64,000 bases of DNA from an uncultured Prochlorococcus sp. (GTDB lineage: Bacteria; Cyanobacteriota; Cyanobacteriia; PCC-6307; Cyanobiaceae), in NCBI RefSeq assembly GCF_902522795.1, contig NZ_CABYWZ010000005.1, positions 1 through 64,000 on the forward strand, read 5' to 3'. The position numbers were made by a program, and so were the translations under genes. Shown in pieces: positions 9,467 to 14,410 of the stretch (its first letter is position 1; the number at the start of each line of letters is the position of its first letter). The notes under the pieces were generated by a model. That model had not been told where the DNA came from, did no database searches, and was given only the letters and a program-made list of their open reading frames with translations.

Positions 9467-9733
9467 ATGGAAGATAATACTGCAAAATATTGGTTCTCTT
9501 GGTTTTATGAAAAGTGGGAGGAAAATGATCCAGGTGAATTAATTGAACAAGGTTTAACTCCGTCTCAGATTGCTGAGCGCTTTGTTAATGAAAACCATGA
9601 TAGTCTTGTTCAATTGTCAAAAAAAATTGATGAAAAAAATTATGATGCCTTAACAGAATTTATGAAACTCTCAGAGAGTGAATTACATATCTTGAAATAT
9701 TTTCTAAAGTTAGTAAAAATGAAAAATTTATAA
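9467..9733 (+). CDS. 88-aa conserved-looking hypothetical protein
   Basis: A small acidic helical protein starting with ATG: MEDNTAKYWFSWFYEKWEEND. Aromatic residues cluster in the first 20 residues, then comes LTPSQIAERFVNEN, which has a helix-turn-helix flavour but is too short to call. Its last 6 bases overlap the convergent SDR gene. No family is recognised. Confidence 0.65.
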   Translation: MEDNTAKYWFSWFYEKWEENDPGELIEQGLTPSQIAERFVNENHDSLVQLSKKIDEKNYDALTEFMKLSESELHILKYFLKLVKMKNL

Positions 9734-10657
9734 GAAGTTATTAAGTATTTCAAGGCTTTTTTCCCATAAATTTTTTCTTTCTTTTTTGTTCATGGCGAAA
9801 GGAGAAGTAGGGGATAGTTTTGGATGACCTCTGAAATTAAATCTAGGACCATAATGATCACCGCCTCTTGCGTCTGGTGAAGTAGCTGCATAAAGTTGAG
9901 GTAAAGCACCCATCTCAGCAGTTTGAAATATAGGGCTAAATAATTCCAATGAGAATGTTTCTAATGGACTAGGGTTAGGTTTTTGAGCAGTAAAGAGATT
10001 TGTTTTTGCAATTCCTGGGTGAGCAGCTAAAGAGAGTATATTCTTGTGCTTTAAGTTCTCATTTAGTTCCAAAGCAAACATTACATTTGCCAATTTACTA
10101 TTGGAGTAAGATTCCCATTTGTTGTAATAGTTCTCGGCTTTAAGATTTTCCCAACCAACTTTGCCAAAAAATTGTGCTCCGGAAGTAACCGTCACTATTC
10201 TAGATTCTTCTTTTTTTTCAATAATTGGAAGTAATTTTAGAGATAAAAGCATGTGAGCTAGATGATTAACTGCAAATTGTATTTCATAACCTTGGGCACT
10301 AAGAGTTTTAGGCGGATGCATAATGCCTGCATTATTGATTAGTAAATCCAAATTTTCAAAATTATCAAAAATTATGGACTGAACTTCGACAATATTTTTT
10401 AAATCTGATAAATCTAACTCTAAAGGTGTAAATAATCCTTCAGGATTAAGACCTTTAAGTTTTTTGATAGTTTGATTAGCTTTTTCAAGCGATCTACAAG
10501 CTATAAGAACATGAGCATTTTTTTCTGCTAAGGCCTTTGCAGTGTAGTATCCAAGACCACTATTTGCACCAGTTATTAGCGCTGATTTGCCTGCAAGGTT
10601 TGGAATATGAGATGTTTCCCAGTTAGAGATTTTAGATCTTGAAATAATGGCAGTCAT
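9728..10657 (-). CDS. short-chain dehydrogenase/reductase (retinol-dehydrogenase-like)
   Basis: The 309-aa SDR has the cofactor motif TGANSGLGYYTAK (about residues 29-41), NNAG (NLDLLINNAGIMH), the catalytic serine in VTVTSGAQ, and the YxxxK pair in YSNSKLAN. Arg in IACRSLEKA after the second strand suggests NADP(H). It is the longer, RDH/WWOX-like type, related to protochlorophyllide-reductase-like SDRs; the substrate is unknown. The C-terminal part (TSPDARGGDHYGP) is the usual family ending. It converges with the 88-aa gene and lies upstream of the ligase-like gene on the same strand in reverse order. Confidence 0.88.
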   Translation of the reverse strand: MTAIISRSKISNWETSHIPNLAGKSALITGANSGLGYYTAKALAEKNAHVLIACRSLEKANQTIKKLKGLNPEGLFTPLELDLSDLKNIVEVQSIIFDNFENLDLLINNAGIMHPPKTLSAQGYEIQFAVNHLAHMLLSLKLLPIIEKKEESRIVTVTSGAQFFGKVGWENLKAENYYNKWESYSNSKLANVMFALELNENLKHKNILSLAAHPGIAKTNLFTAQKPNPSPLETFSLELFSPIFQTAEMGALPQLYAATSPDARGGDHYGPRFNFRGHPKLSPTSPFAMNKKERKNLWEKSLEILNNFL

Positions 10658-10765
10658 TTAGTAATCATGAAAATTGATTTGGAATTTAACCAAAATTTAA
10701 TTACTTTTTCACTGTAAATACTGGAAGTCAGTATCGTGAGCTCTTTTTGAAGGTACTATTTAATA

Positions 10766-11515
10766 TTATTTTTGAATTGCATATTGCCATTCGTTATTTT
10801 GAGAGTAACTTTTCTCTCTAAGTAACTGTAATTTCCTACTATTTATTTTTATAACTATCCCATTAGTTGGATATTTCGCAAATATTTTTCTCTCTAACCA
10901 ATTTTTTTTATATATTTGGATTTCGCTTGTATGATTTGTGAAGTAACTGTCAGGGGTGCTGAAGCCACATTTTTTAAGATAGTTAAGGGTTTCGTATTGA
11001 TTAAGTCTTCCATTAAGTATTTGGAAACAGCAAAAGCGGAGACTTTCTCCAATCCCTTTCTTATCATTGAGGTATTTTCTTGTAATTCTTTGGGAAATAC
11101 CGGCAACTTGGTTTGTAGCGTATAGTTCACCTCTAATTTGAAAATCTCGTTTGATAGGAATACAATTGGGGACATTTTTAATTTGTTTAATTTTGCTTGA
11201 GACATCAAATCCTTTTTTTGTAATAGCTTTATTAAACTTGCCATCTATATATCTAATTGCAATAGCACAGCCATCAATTTTTGGTTGAATGCTTAATCTT
11301 GTTTTTGTTAATAAACTTTCCAAAAATTCTTTATAGTTTTCTTTAGCTAATTTTGGCAAAAGTTCATTATTTTTTTGATTAAAGTAGTCAGGTTTTCGAT
11401 CAACAGGAATAAAGAGCTTTTCAAGTTGTTTAAATGCATCATCCGAAATTATGCCTTCACCTAATCTGTATTGTTCATCTAGATACTTAACATCTTTCAA
11501 TAATAAATTATTCAT
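10766..11515 (-). CDS. truncated NAD+-dependent DNA ligase-like protein (adenylation domain only)
   Basis: The 249-aa protein resembles LigA from its Ia domain through the adenylation domain, with the OB-fold, zinc finger, HhH and BRCT parts absent (LigA is usually about 670 aa). Residues 11-31 match the Ia region (ISDDAF). The motif I nucleophile is K79 in KIDG, motif III is RGE (128-130), and motif IV is NGIVIK (218-223, D to N). The frame ends at motif V (WQYAIQK). By hand alignment, several NMN-binding residues are changed, so NAD+ use is doubtful. It could act in nick repair, in RNA or DNA adenylation, or as a non-catalytic binder; it may also be a decaying gene, though the frame is intact. 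Confidence 0.75.
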   Translation of the reverse strand: MNNLLLKDVKYLDEQYRLGEGIISDDAFKQLEKLFIPVDRKPDYFNQKNNELLPKLAKENYKEFLESLLTKTRLSIQPKIDGCAIAIRYIDGKFNKAITKKGFDVSSKIKQIKNVPNCIPIKRDFQIRGELYATNQVAGISQRITRKYLNDKKGIGESLRFCCFQILNGRLNQYETLNYLKKCGFSTPDSYFTNHTSEIQIYKKNWLERKIFAKYPTNGIVIKINSRKLQLLREKSYSQNNEWQYAIQK

Positions 11516-11777
11516 AATAATTTTGATAAATATTTAAAAATCTTTTAGAAAAATCATTTAAATAAAGATGAGATTTTAAAAGTAATTGACCACTAAATAT
11601 CCTCCTACGCAGAGAGCAATTAAAGAGTATAAAATGTATTGATCAAGCGTTTAAATTAAATATCTCAATCAAACATATTTACTAAAAAGTGAAATAGAAA
11701 ATTTTAAGGCTTAATAAGCAGACTAATTTTTAAAATTACTATCAATACCAAAAAATATTTTTTAAAGTTATGAGAAA

Positions 11778-12932
11778 ATGTCATTTTTATTAAAAGCCCA
11801 AAATACCTGGGGAAATTTTGCGAAATACAAAATTAATGATTATGCAAAATTAAGAAATTTTGATTTTGGCCCAAATAACGAAAGTTCAGTTTCAAAATTA
11901 TCGCCTTTTATTACTCATAGAATATTATCGGAATATGATCTGATTCATGATATTAAAAGTAAGTACAAAATCAAAAATTCAACTAAATTTGTTGAAGAAA
12001 TATTTTGGAGAGTTTACTGGAAAGGGTGGATGGAAAATAGACCTAAAGTTTGGAGAAATTTTATTTCAGAAAAAAATCTCGATTTTGATTATGAGCTATA
12101 TGAAAGTGCAATTAATGGCAATACAGAATTAGATTTTTTTAATTCTTGGGTCCATGAATTAAAGCATTACAACTATTTGCATAACCATACAAGAATGTGG
12201 TTTGCGAGTACTTGGATATTTAATTTAGGCCTCCCTTGGCAATTGGGAGCAAAGTTTTTCTTTAAATATCTTTTTGATGGTGATGCTGCATCTAATCTCC
12301 TTAGCTGGAGATGGGTCGGAGGATTGCAAACGAAGGGAAAACAATATCTTTTTTCATCATCAAACCTCAGAAAATTTTCAAATAATAGATTTAATGCAGA
12401 AAAAATAAGTAATCAACAAATTTTGCTTGAAGAATCTAATCAAATACCATTAGAAGATGAAATTTATAAAAATGATATGGACCCTAAATCAGATAATCTG
12501 ATTATGTTTGAAAATGATCTGCACCTTGCAACCCTCAAAAATTTACTTACAAGTTATAAAAAAGTATTTATTATCCTTTTAAAAAATGAACAGAGACAAA
12601 TTAAATTGTCTGAATCTGTTTTGAAATTTAAACAAGATTTGGTCTCTGAATTTGTAGAGCATTTTGACAATATTGAACAGATTGATCCTTATTCACTGGA
12701 AAATACTTTTAAAAATACCAACGAAATAGACATTATTTATCCTGGAGTGGGAGAAAATTATGATTTCATAACTGAGTTTAAAAATTTACACAATAAAAAA
12801 ATTTTTAACCTTGTTAGAGATGAAGATTTATTTGCTTGGAAATTTGCTAAAAAAGGGTTTTTCAAATTTAAAGAAAACATTCCGAGAATTAATCAGAGAA
12901 TATTTGAAAATTATTCAAAAAATAATTTTTAA
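11778..12932 (+). CDS. photolyase/cryptochrome-like protein with FAD domain first
   Basis: The 384-aa protein opens directly with the photolyase FAD-binding domain (about residues 35-205): SKLSPFITHRILSE, EEIFWRVYWKGWMENRP, HNHTRMWFAS and DGDAASNLLSWRWVGG. The usual N-terminal alpha/beta domain is missing at the front. Instead residues 240-375 look like that domain at the C-terminus: NLIMFENDLHLATLKNLL resembles the photolyase N-terminal strand and DLRL motif, and the end DLFAWKFAKKGFFKFKENIP resembles the strand-end VFTPFxxxW region. This suggests a reordered, possibly circularly permuted photolyase. ATG start; light-driven DNA repair or sensing is inferred. Confidence 0.8.
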   Translation: MSFLLKAQNTWGNFAKYKINDYAKLRNFDFGPNNESSVSKLSPFITHRILSEYDLIHDIKSKYKIKNSTKFVEEIFWRVYWKGWMENRPKVWRNFISEKNLDFDYELYESAINGNTELDFFNSWVHELKHYNYLHNHTRMWFASTWIFNLGLPWQLGAKFFFKYLFDGDAASNLLSWRWVGGLQTKGKQYLFSSSNLRKFSNNRFNAEKISNQQILLEESNQIPLEDEIYKNDMDPKSDNLIMFENDLHLATLKNLLTSYKKVFIILLKNEQRQIKLSESVLKFKQDLVSEFVEHFDNIEQIDPYSLENTFKNTNEIDIIYPGVGENYDFITEFKNLHNKKIFNLVRDEDLFAWKFAKKGFFKFKENIPRINQRIFENYSKNNF

Positions 12933-12973
12933 CTTAGTTGAATTTCTAATCAGAAAAAGAATTCTTAGAGTAC

Positions 12974-12989
12974 TAAGTATAAATACTTA
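12974..12989. promoter_or_regulatory. 16-bp near-perfect palindrome upstream of doxX-like gene
   Basis: TAAGTAT-AA-ATACTTA is a perfect inverted repeat with a 2-base centre, 78 bases before the DoxX start and 42 bases after the photolyase-like stop. Its symmetry fits a dimeric regulator's operator; it is too AT-rich to be a terminator. In this AT-rich DNA chance cannot be excluded. Confidence 0.3.
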
Positions 12990-13067
12990 ATTAGGTGCGA
13001 CTTTTGCTGTTTAATCCACGATGGATACTGTGACTAGTTATTTTTACTTAAGGATAATTTTTTTATA

Positions 13068-13619
13068 GTGCTTTCAACAATTCTTACAAAGTCGTTTAGC
13101 AAAGATACTGCTTTATTAATTCTTAGAGTTATAACAGGTACTGTTCTTATACATCATGGTTATGAGAAATTAGCGAATATCGAAAATTTCGCTGATGCTT
13201 TTGTCAGACCTTTACATCTTCCATTTCCAATATTTTTATCATACATAGCGGCATTTTCAGAAATAGGTGGTAGTTGGTTACTTATTATCGGCTTAGCTAC
13301 AAGGTTTGGAGCTTTGGCAATTGTTGGAACAATTTCTGTAGCTATATACCATGCTCTTGTTACTTCAGGTTTTAATATTTTCTTGCTAGAGCTTCTACTT
13401 TTATATTTCGCTTCTGCAACTTCAATTGCATTAACAGGGCCTGGTAATTTCTCATTAGATGAAGTCATTATCAGAATTTTGAAATCAGAAGATGAAGCAG
13501 AAATTGTTACCTCAACAAAATCAAAATCTTCTAAGGAAATTGAAGTTAAAGAAGAAACAAGTAAAGGTGGTTTATTTCAATTCCTGCAAGCAAACATACT
13601 TTCAGATACTTCAAGCTAA
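13068..13619 (+). CDS. DoxX family membrane protein
   Basis: The 183-aa protein has four membrane helices in its first 120 residues, with the DoxX-type start LLILRVITGTVLIHHGYEKLANIENFADAF and the third-helix region GLATRFGALAIVG. DoxX-like proteins are linked with thiol redox balance and quinone-linked functions; the exact role is unknown. The C-terminal 45 residues are a charged Ser/Lys/Glu-rich tail not typical of the core. The start is GTG at 13068. It overlaps the convergent 57-aa gene by 9 bases. Confidence 0.85.
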   Translation: MLSTILTKSFSKDTALLILRVITGTVLIHHGYEKLANIENFADAFVRPLHLPFPIFLSYIAAFSEIGGSWLLIIGLATRFGALAIVGTISVAIYHALVTSGFNIFLLELLLLYFASATSIALTGPGNFSLDEVIIRILKSEDEAEIVTSTKSKSSKEIEVKEETSKGGLFQFLQANILSDTSS

Positions 13620-13784
13620 CTTTTTAGGATAAAGGCTATTTATCAGCTCTACCCGTTTACGATAACTGTTTCTCTTCTCGAGCTTTATCTTAATTGTCGC
13701 TTCAGAAAGACTTATAAACAGTCCTATAGCTGTCACCCAAGATAAAAAAATAAAAGGGTTCTTTGGAATTTCTGAGAAATTCAT
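13611..13784 (-). CDS. 57-aa single-span membrane protein
   Basis: ATG at 13782-13784 to TGA at 13611-13613. The product has one hydrophobic helix (about residues 10-27, FIFLSWVTAIGLFISL) and then a basic helical tail (IKIKLEKRNSYRKRVELINSLYPKK). The topology (short N-end, single span, basic cytosolic tail) resembles the 78-aa protein at 2852-3088, which also ends with LxSLYPxxKK. It overlaps DoxX by 9 bases at the 3' ends. Confidence 0.55.
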   Translation of the reverse strand: MNFSEIPKNPFIFLSWVTAIGLFISLSEATIKIKLEKRNSYRKRVELINSLYPKKLA

Positions 13785-13858
13785 ATGAATAATACTTCTT
13801 TTTTAAAACTGACCGATCACTATATGATTTTCAACCTAAATATACAATTTAGAAATAT

Positions 13859-14410
13859 TTAAGGATTAATTTCAACTTTTTCCCATTTCTTAATCTTTTC
13901 CCAAAGATAACGTTTATGAACAGGCTGTTCTAATTTAAGAAGATCTACTGAATCGATTTCAAAATTTAAAACTACAAAATTTTCTGACTTAGGCAGATTG
14001 GAAAATAATTCATGAGCAGATTGTACTTTTGGGGTTATTTTCTCTCCAGGAGATCCCCAAAACCAAGAAGATTTTGATTTTTCTGATAATAAATCCCAAT
14101 AATTTTTGTTATCACTTAATTCACGTATTTTTCCTTTGAATCTATATTGTGATTTGGTTTTCAAAAAAAACCATAATATTTCTGCATTAGGGTTAGATTT
14201 TAAATGTCCAATTTTTTCACTTCTTCTATCTGTAAAAATAATCATTGAATTATCTTTATACCATCCTCTGAAAACAACTGTTCTTAATCTTGGCTCGTTT
14301 TCTTCGCTGACTGTTGCAAGCTGTATCCATCTATTAGAGGGAGATTTGCCCTCTTTTTTTCTAGCGGATTTTAAATCTTGTCTCCAACTTGGTAAGTTGT
14401 TATCAGGCAT
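13859..14410 (-). CDS. FMN-binding PPOX (pyridoxamine 5'-phosphate oxidase-like) protein
   Basis: The 183-aa protein belongs to the cyanobacterial/plant Npun_F5749-type PPOX flavoproteins: NRWIQLATVSEENEPRLRTVVFRG opens the split-barrel, IIFTDRRSEKIGHLKSNPNAEILWFF is the FMN-contacting block, and RYLWEKIKKWEKVEINP closes the C-terminus. These proteins bind FMN; the reaction for this subgroup is not established, and it is not clearly a true PdxH. It overlaps the downstream end of the DUF1295 gene by 8 bases, indicating co-transcription. Confidence 0.85.
   Translation of the reverse strand: MPDNNLPSWRQDLKSARKKEGKSPSNRWIQLATVSEENEPRLRTVVFRGWYKDNSMIIFTDRRSEKIGHLKSNPNAEILWFFLKTKSQYRFKGKIRELSDNKNYWDLLSEKSKSSWFWGSPGEKITPKVQSAHELFSNLPKSENFVVLNFEIDSVDLLKLEQPVHKRYLWEKIKKWEKVEINP

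Follow-up and report, generated by a model that had tools for sequence, protein, structure and literature searches.

A Prochlorococcus photolyase with its two domains in reversed order

Our analysis supports the conclusion that one open reading frame (ORF) in the window, the 64,000-nucleotide stretch of DNA that was analyzed, encodes a photolyase with reversed domain order, since each of its two domains could be matched separately to its counterpart in ordinary photolyases. The window lies on contig C5 of a 1.42 Mb assembly, and its host is most likely a high-light clade Prochlorococcus. The ORF starts with ATG, has no internal stops and encodes 384 amino acids followed by a stop (Table 1). 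Taking the evidence together, the gene is very probably Prochlorococcus phr7, which encodes a short photolyase-like (NewPHL) enzyme, and this is the best explanation overall. By analogy with characterized proteins, its role would most likely be the light-driven repair of cyclobutane pyrimidine dimers (CPDs), probably in single-stranded DNA.

The swap of domains that had been proposed from the letters alone is thus correct, yet already known, because the reversal in NewPHLs was published in 2020 (Emmerich et al., as cited in PMC9426592 and PMC13274461), and Prochlorococcus Phr7 was described and put in the NewPHL class two years later (Haney et al., 2022; PMC9426592). In the sections of that paper available to us, Phr7 has an N-terminal FAD domain and a short C-terminal Z-domain, and occurs in HL and LLI Prochlorococcus. 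The protein studied here has the same FAD domain and C-terminal Z-domain and likewise no Fe-S cysteines; against the published account, as far as those sections go, nothing of substance differs except the placement in the tree, which the paper puts beside Phr4 and Phr6. The window gene is a Phr7 ortholog, judged by its architecture, its genus-level conservation and the Prochlorococcus-type ATP-dependent ligase of its genome. The literature that we searched held no work naming Phr7 beyond PMC9426592, and no enzyme described as a circularly permuted photolyase turned up there by titles and the starts of abstracts. The present analysis makes a modest addition, consisting of a confidently predicted model of Phr7, a match in fold between the Z-domain and the photolyase N-terminal domain, and a shift in the tree toward the NewPHLs.

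Table 1. Coordinates in the window of phr7 and of the domains and motifs of its product.
Feature	Position	Strand	Basis
phr7 (NewPHL-type photolyase)	11778..12932	+	ORF, genus-wide matches, alignments
FAD-binding (catalytic) helical domain, residues 1-205	11778..12392	+	PF03441; structural match reaches about residue 220
E74..W77-R78, equivalent to E283, W286, R287 of Anacystis nidulans photolyase	11997..12011	+	Column check; hand-read numbering
N136..R139-M140, equivalent to N349, R352, M353	12183..12197	+	Column check
D167, D169, N173, W177, W179, equivalent to D380, D382, N386, W390, W392	12276..12314	+	Column check
Linker, residues 206-239	12393..12494	+	Mostly coil; block-mean pLDDT 84-91, among the lowest
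C-terminal five-stranded Rossmann domain, residues 240-384 (predicted)	12495..12929	+	AlphaFold, VIA-align, HHalign
GFFKFKENIP, residues 360-369, conserved end motif of the C-terminal domain	12855..12884	+	Alignments

The catalytic domain at the N-terminus

That the protein opens directly with the FAD domain, as the sequence-only reading had it, was borne out by several searches. Pfam FAD_binding_7 (PF03441) matches residues 71-194 (E 1.3e-13), no DNA_photolyase domain (PF00875) was found by Pfam ahead of it, and the FAD domain of the model starts at residue 1. The three longest NCBIfam matches run from ORF residues 7-17, which correspond to photolyase profile positions 211-227. Likewise, the five best matches of a PDB sequence search start at ORF residues 15-38, corresponding to chain residues 209-255; the antenna domain that ordinarily precedes the FAD domain is therefore absent. 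AlphaFold modeled the whole protein, using 75 sequences, with a pLDDT of 93.8 and a pTM of 0.91, and the first half of the model is all helical. VIA-align placed model residues 1-220 on residues 176-416 of the Thermus photolyase 1iqr (Z 16.3, rmsd 3.1, 214 aligned), and photolyases and cryptochromes filled 49 of the 50 rows listed for the whole model; the remaining row was a chain from a mitoribosomal assembly intermediate.

The catalytic residues are largely those of a photolyase. When 19 photolyase positions were checked column by column, the canonical residue was present at 15 (S39, L41, S42, E74, W77, R78, N136, R139, M140, W154, D167, D169, N173, W177 and W179), while four near the flavin differ (V38, F71, Y133 and S172). 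Class I CPD photolyases (E. coli PhrB, A. nidulans and Thermus) share both domain folds with Phr7, along with these 15 flavin and dimer positions, but have the Rossmann domain first and the FAD domain second. We take E283, W286, N349, M353 and W392 to be the residues that contact the dimer in the A. nidulans enzyme; their equivalents, E74, W77, N136, M140 and W179, are without exception across 9 Phr7 and 41 NewPHL rows. Judged by eye, an alignment gap in Phr7 takes the place of the third tryptophan in the canonical electron chain. By its sequence, with the FAD_binding_7 match and the conserved flavin and dimer residues, the protein is a member of the photolyase/cryptochrome superfamily.

The four unusual residues near the flavin, and the small number of characterized members of the NewPHL class, could be taken to mean that Phr7 is a cryptochrome-like light sensor devoid of repair activity. 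We consider this highly improbable, as the presumed dimer contacts are invariant across all 50 Phr7 and NewPHL rows. The relatives in Dinoroseobacter shibae and Methylobacterium mesophilicum also argue for a repair enzyme, being described in the text seen of PMC9426592 as CPD photolyases that repair single-stranded DNA.

An iron-sulfur photolyase was ruled out, since the window protein contains no cysteine. The four Fe-S cysteines are present in 26, 26, 26 and 23 of 26 Phr4/Phr6 rows. The first of these positions retains C in the four Phr7 rows from a second genus of the family (g26) and in 23 of the 41 NewPHLs; the other three are, as a rule, not C in either group.

The C-terminal Rossmann domain

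With high confidence, AlphaFold predicted strands at residues 240-244, 262-266, 299-302, 316-320 and 341-345, alternating with helices, and residues 236-384 modeled alone reached a pLDDT of 92.8 and a pTM of 0.83. The segment, read earlier as the missing N-terminal domain (about residues 240-375), was thus found to be neither disordered nor all helical, and the resemblance held up when the predicted domain was compared with known structures. Its best VIA-align match is the S. elongatus 6-4 photolyase 8ijy, residues 2-131 (Z 9.2, rmsd 2.6, 108 aligned), and photolyases and cryptochromes occupy rows 1-16 without exception and 45 of the 50 rows listed, in what is a re-ranking of the 1000 chains placed highest by Foldseek. 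We put the weight on the uniformity of this list over the Z score, because, as the tool warns, models with no clear match often reach a best Z of 7-8.

A different explanation is that an unrelated Rossmann or HUP-like domain was fused to the FAD domain, such that the swap is merely apparent. Foldseek with the C-terminal domain, a check proposed along with the original reading, did find a photolyase, but only at rank 15 (5kcm, E 1.3e-2), with phosphopantetheine adenylyltransferase (CoaD) ranked first (E 1.5e-3). NCBIfam similarly gave a weak CoaD match to residues 249-338 (E 0.015). CoaD and the photolyase N-terminal domain belong to one broad class of Rossmann-like (HUP) folds. Pfam detected no photolyase domain in residues 236-384, and its DNA_photolyase model was matched by only 3 of 75 C-terminal domains of the family (best E 0.041); a search of PDB sequences with the C-terminal profile returned no photolyase up to E 10. 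These results would favor an unrelated domain, as would the HHalign probability of only 16% obtained when 94 NewPHL/Phr7 C-terminal rows were compared with 29 canonical N-terminal domains.

The same HHalign comparison nevertheless speaks against it in other respects. The alignment (score 27.0, E 0.0016) spans the domains from end to end, 4-159 on 5-179. In it, the aspartates of ENDLHL and of the canonical DLRL motif fall in one column, and GFFKFK, in which G360 and F362 are invariant in 75 sequences, lines up with the canonical GPFWKN, so that both motif assignments guessed at by hand were recovered. Among 200 column shuffles the highest score was 18.4, and a single one of 200 block shuffles reached 27.0. 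Against 33 Phr5 domains the score was 30.4; here 200 column shuffles went no higher than 21.2 and 3 of 200 block shuffles scored as high, and enlarging the profiles left the result unchanged, with one and three of 200 block shuffles as high. A fused reversed-order protein from Persicobacter failed as a sequence bridge: block shuffles scored as high in 46 of 100 cases for NewPHLs and 27 of 100 for canonical N-terminal domains, no better than such shuffles, and in 8 of 100 for Phr5, a link that appears weak. The alignments together suggest a signal linking the C-terminal domain to photolyase N-terminal domains that is above chance and modest.

The domain at the same position in Phr4/Phr5 genes offers a further comparison. 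In the two tested, Pfam DNA_photolyase was matched with E-values of 1.1e-4 and 2.3e-4, weak recognition that falls under Pfam's own cut-off, and a Phr5 profile aligned with canonical N-terminal domains at an HHalign probability of 96%. Given these matches, the VIA-align list and the shuffles, we regard an unrelated fused domain as very improbable. The predicted structure instead supports the C-terminal domain as corresponding to the antenna domain that ordinary photolyases have at their N-terminus. With the FAD part lying on the photolyase C-terminal domain and the Rossmann part on the N-terminal one, the swapped order stands. What these separate matches support is a reversal of domain order; a circular permutation in the strict sense, with both domains keeping their placement in space between new chain ends, would be a further step.

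The gene, its neighborhood and its relatives

The gene is widespread in its genus. A near-full-length match (start at or before residue 14, end at or after residue 379) was found in 32 of 37 same-genus genomes, the window's own included; in 9 of these 32 there is a stop near the 3´ end, and the ORFs there are nonetheless 378-395 amino acids long. The five genomes without such a match (G003, G020, G031, G032 and G035) have completeness values of 94, 81, 51, 58 and 84%, respectively. Across both halves of phr7, dN/dS was 0.10-0.23 in six comparisons, two of them with saturated dS (above 1.3, L028 and L036) and one with a dS of merely 0.05-0.06 (L003); the range was 0.12-0.17 for the FAD part and 0.10-0.23 for the C-terminal part. 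Purifying selection acts on both halves. A chance or broken ORF was ruled out by these dN/dS values and the genus-wide matches. A scan for promoters gave 8 sites where 10.7 were expected, and one for terminators gave 1 where 0.5 was expected.

A phage-borne gene was also considered, and dropped given how sparse and partial the matches in phage and viral records are. Only 10 of 50,697 phage records match the Phr7 protein, all at less than 60% identity and none covering 80% of it. Records labeled as Staphylococcus, Listeria or Enterococcus phage, OR844990.1 and OR850038.1 among them, match the FAD domain of photolyases at about 26%, and some of them may be host DNA. Among viral contigs, a single Phr7 protein as query gave one 42-residue match, and alignment A2 as query gave none; the contig concerned (IMGVR_UViG_3300006345_000990) ends in these 42 Phr7 residues, at 90% identity, and we read it as host DNA or the edge of a prophage.

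The neighborhood of phr7 is itself conserved. All 37 same-genus loci compared have a DoxX gene next to phr7, with SDR and PNPOx-like genes at the outer sides (9728-14410 in the window); in the four g26 loci (L193-L196), the SDR gene alone was found within the 1.5-kb flanks. Adjoining phr7 on the other strand, at 10766-11515 (-), is a 249-residue ORF consisting solely of the adenylation domain of an NAD-dependent DNA ligase (PF01653). A match to this ORF lies beside phr7 in 33 of the 37 loci (absent from L028, L031, L191 and L192) and is split into two pieces in three (L016, L018 and L020). A second ORF with only the adenylation domain is found on contig C1.

Full-length LigA was absent from all seven genomes of the window's genus that were searched (its own, G015, G022, G024, G060, G126 and G146), where the frames are 249-263 amino acids long, and present as a 685-713 residue frame in all six genomes of other genera in the family. 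The distribution of an ATP-dependent ligase, with a frame of 444-452 amino acids, is the opposite, with seven of seven genomes in the genus and none of the six outside it. The 442-residue ATP-dependent DNA ligase of the window genome matches PDB entries 6rau, 6ras and 6rar over 432-441 residues (E to 7e-282), which are structures of the Prochlorococcus marinus ligase according to the part of PMC6698739 available to us. The housekeeping ligase thus seems to have been replaced in the window's clade. A table in PMC3940434, seen in part, places an ATP-dependent ligase of Synechococcus WH8102 among early losses.

Beyond the cyanobacteria, Ruegeria sp. TM1040 was matched by tblastn over residues 21-332 (35.6% identity, E 7e-61), and a scan of genome contigs found at least 592 related stretches, of which the best 80 were kept. 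We take 72 of these best 80 to be alphaproteobacterial, from our own placing of their genera; record titles assign the other eight to Proteobacteria, Burkholderiaceae, Betaproteobacteria, Moraxellaceae, Woeseiaceae, Thioalkalivibrio, Gammaproteobacteria and one cyanobacterium. Since the 80 loci are those that best match a Ruegeria-led alignment, this make-up leans toward relatives of Ruegeria. After a length and coverage filter 77 loci were retained (L079, L080 and L084 were dropped), and three near-duplicates (L052, L060 and L068) were excluded from alignments A3 and A4.

Phr7 is homologous to the proteobacterial NewPHLs along its full length, the end motif W..A..GFF..K..IP included. As judged on alphaproteobacterial relatives rather than on the characterized proteins, Phr7 and NewPHL/SPL enzymes share the inverted order, the lack of an Fe-S cluster and full-length homology. 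The two are 29-37% identical, and some NewPHLs (such as L041-L043) have about 8 additional residues after D104 that Phr7 lacks. Closer to home, four g26 genomes carry full-length copies at 41-43% identity, in keeping with the HL plus LLI distribution given in the parts consulted of PMC9426592.

Several of these relatives have features of their own. Among alphaproteobacterial NewPHL genes on plasmids (L041, L043, L044 and L045), those of L041, L043 and L044 have a UbiB-type kinase gene adjacent or a few genes off, and a DUF3429 gene adjoins the NewPHL gene in L044 and L045. A contig titled 'uncultured cyanobacterium' (L112, CASBPX010000068.1) carries a NewPHL that is nested among alphaproteobacterial ones, beside L110, and is probably mis-binned. 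The reversed-order photolyase-like protein of Persicobacter sp. (Bacteroidota; L047, 2234-3532) has 433 residues, sits on a long branch and, by eye, is without clustered Fe-S cysteines; the next ORF looks, again by eye, like a photolyase of ordinary order.

The origin and function of Phr7

The main question about the history of Phr7 is its relation to the Phr4/Phr5 split pair and the Phr6 fusion of Synechococcus, Cyanobium and other cyanobacteria. These share with Phr7 the order of FAD domain then Rossmann domain, as well as a related FAD domain, but unlike Phr7 they have the four Fe-S cysteines and are often encoded by two genes. A match to the Phr5 domain was found in 46 of 194 genomes of the class, one of them (G115) weak and inside a long frame of canonical size, and in none of the eight genomes of the window's genus listed. 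Five loci (L201, L203, L204, L205 and L212) hold single-ORF fusions of the Phr4/Phr5 type.

Phr7 could therefore be a derived cyanobacterial Phr4/Phr5/Phr6 protein (Fe-S enzymes, with proposed 6-4 activity) that lost its cluster in the picocyanobacteria and is perhaps 6-4-active still. The common domain order, in split or fused genes, the 30-37% identity between the FAD domains of Phr7 and those of the Phr4/Phr6 type, and the C at the first Fe-S position, which was kept as described above, all fit such a descent. The tree of Haney et al. (2022; PMC9426592), in the part seen, also has Phr7 nearest to Phr4 and Phr6. An alphaproteobacterium is not among the outgroups named in what we have of its methods section.

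Our own tree argues otherwise. It was built from 238 FAD-domain columns and 88 rows, for which the 82 NewPHLs were thinned to one in two and the 29 canonical rows to one in three, and Phr4 was represented by a subset. The program flagged long branches (L047, L046, L165 and L045) and an odd letter make-up in all nine Phr7 rows. The nine Phr7 rows group with 41 proteobacterial NewPHLs (SH-aLRT 99). Holding Phr7, Phr4 and Phr6 together as one clade is 84.1 log units worse (p-AU 0.000934), and comparing Phr7 inside the proteobacterial NewPHL group with Phr7 beside it gave a p-AU of 0.48, which favors neither placement. The FAD-domain columns thus indicate that Phr7 shifts from Phr4/Phr6 to the NewPHLs once proteobacterial NewPHLs join the tree. 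In one local search, moreover, the best NewPHL match covers residues 14-371 (E 3e-86) and the best Phr4 match the FAD domain alone (E 1e-26). Altogether, we think it very unlikely that Phr7 is a cluster-free descendant of Phr4/Phr5/Phr6.

A tentative and rather doubtful further reading would be that high-light Prochlorococcus, in which the Fe-S photolyase of the Phr4/Phr5 kind known from its Synechococcus-like relatives seems to be missing, took a cluster-free NewPHL from a proteobacterium rather than inheriting that enzyme, and thereby spared iron, which we infer could be an advantage in an iron-poor habitat. The SH-aLRT support and the AU test fit this reading, whereas the p-AU of 0.48 leaves either direction of transfer possible.

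The preferred reading of the gene as phr7 suggests how its product may work. The N-terminal helical domain would bind FAD as well as a pyrimidine dimer flipped into the pocket; the reduced flavin, once excited by blue or near-UV light, would pass an electron to the dimer, which would then split, as in photolyase chemistry. The C-terminal Rossmann domain most likely covers the catalytic domain on its flavin side and would carry no antenna pigment. Class I CPD photolyases do carry one, and an antenna pigment is stated for photolyases in general in the portion seen of PMC9426592. The chemistry would be of the CPD rather than the 6-4 type, and a preference for single-stranded DNA would be expected from the Dinoroseobacter and Methylobacterium relatives. 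We found no biochemistry of Phr7 in the literature searched, and the mutants and E. coli transformants in the sections available of PMC9426592 concern the Synechococcus genes phr1 to phr5.

Raw sequence and structure prediction confirm a reversed-order photolyase in Prochlorococcus, an abundant marine phototroph. They also indicate that the published Z-domain has the Rossmann fold of the antenna domain, so that photolyases of two domains come in either order. In studies of Prochlorococcus UV resistance, a NewPHL origin of Phr7 becomes likelier than one from a Phr4/Phr6 protein lacking its cluster. If the acquisition from a proteobacterium were true, reversed-order photolyases would have been exchanged, an Fe-S enzyme for a cluster-free one, in a way that would spare iron in an iron-poor habitat.
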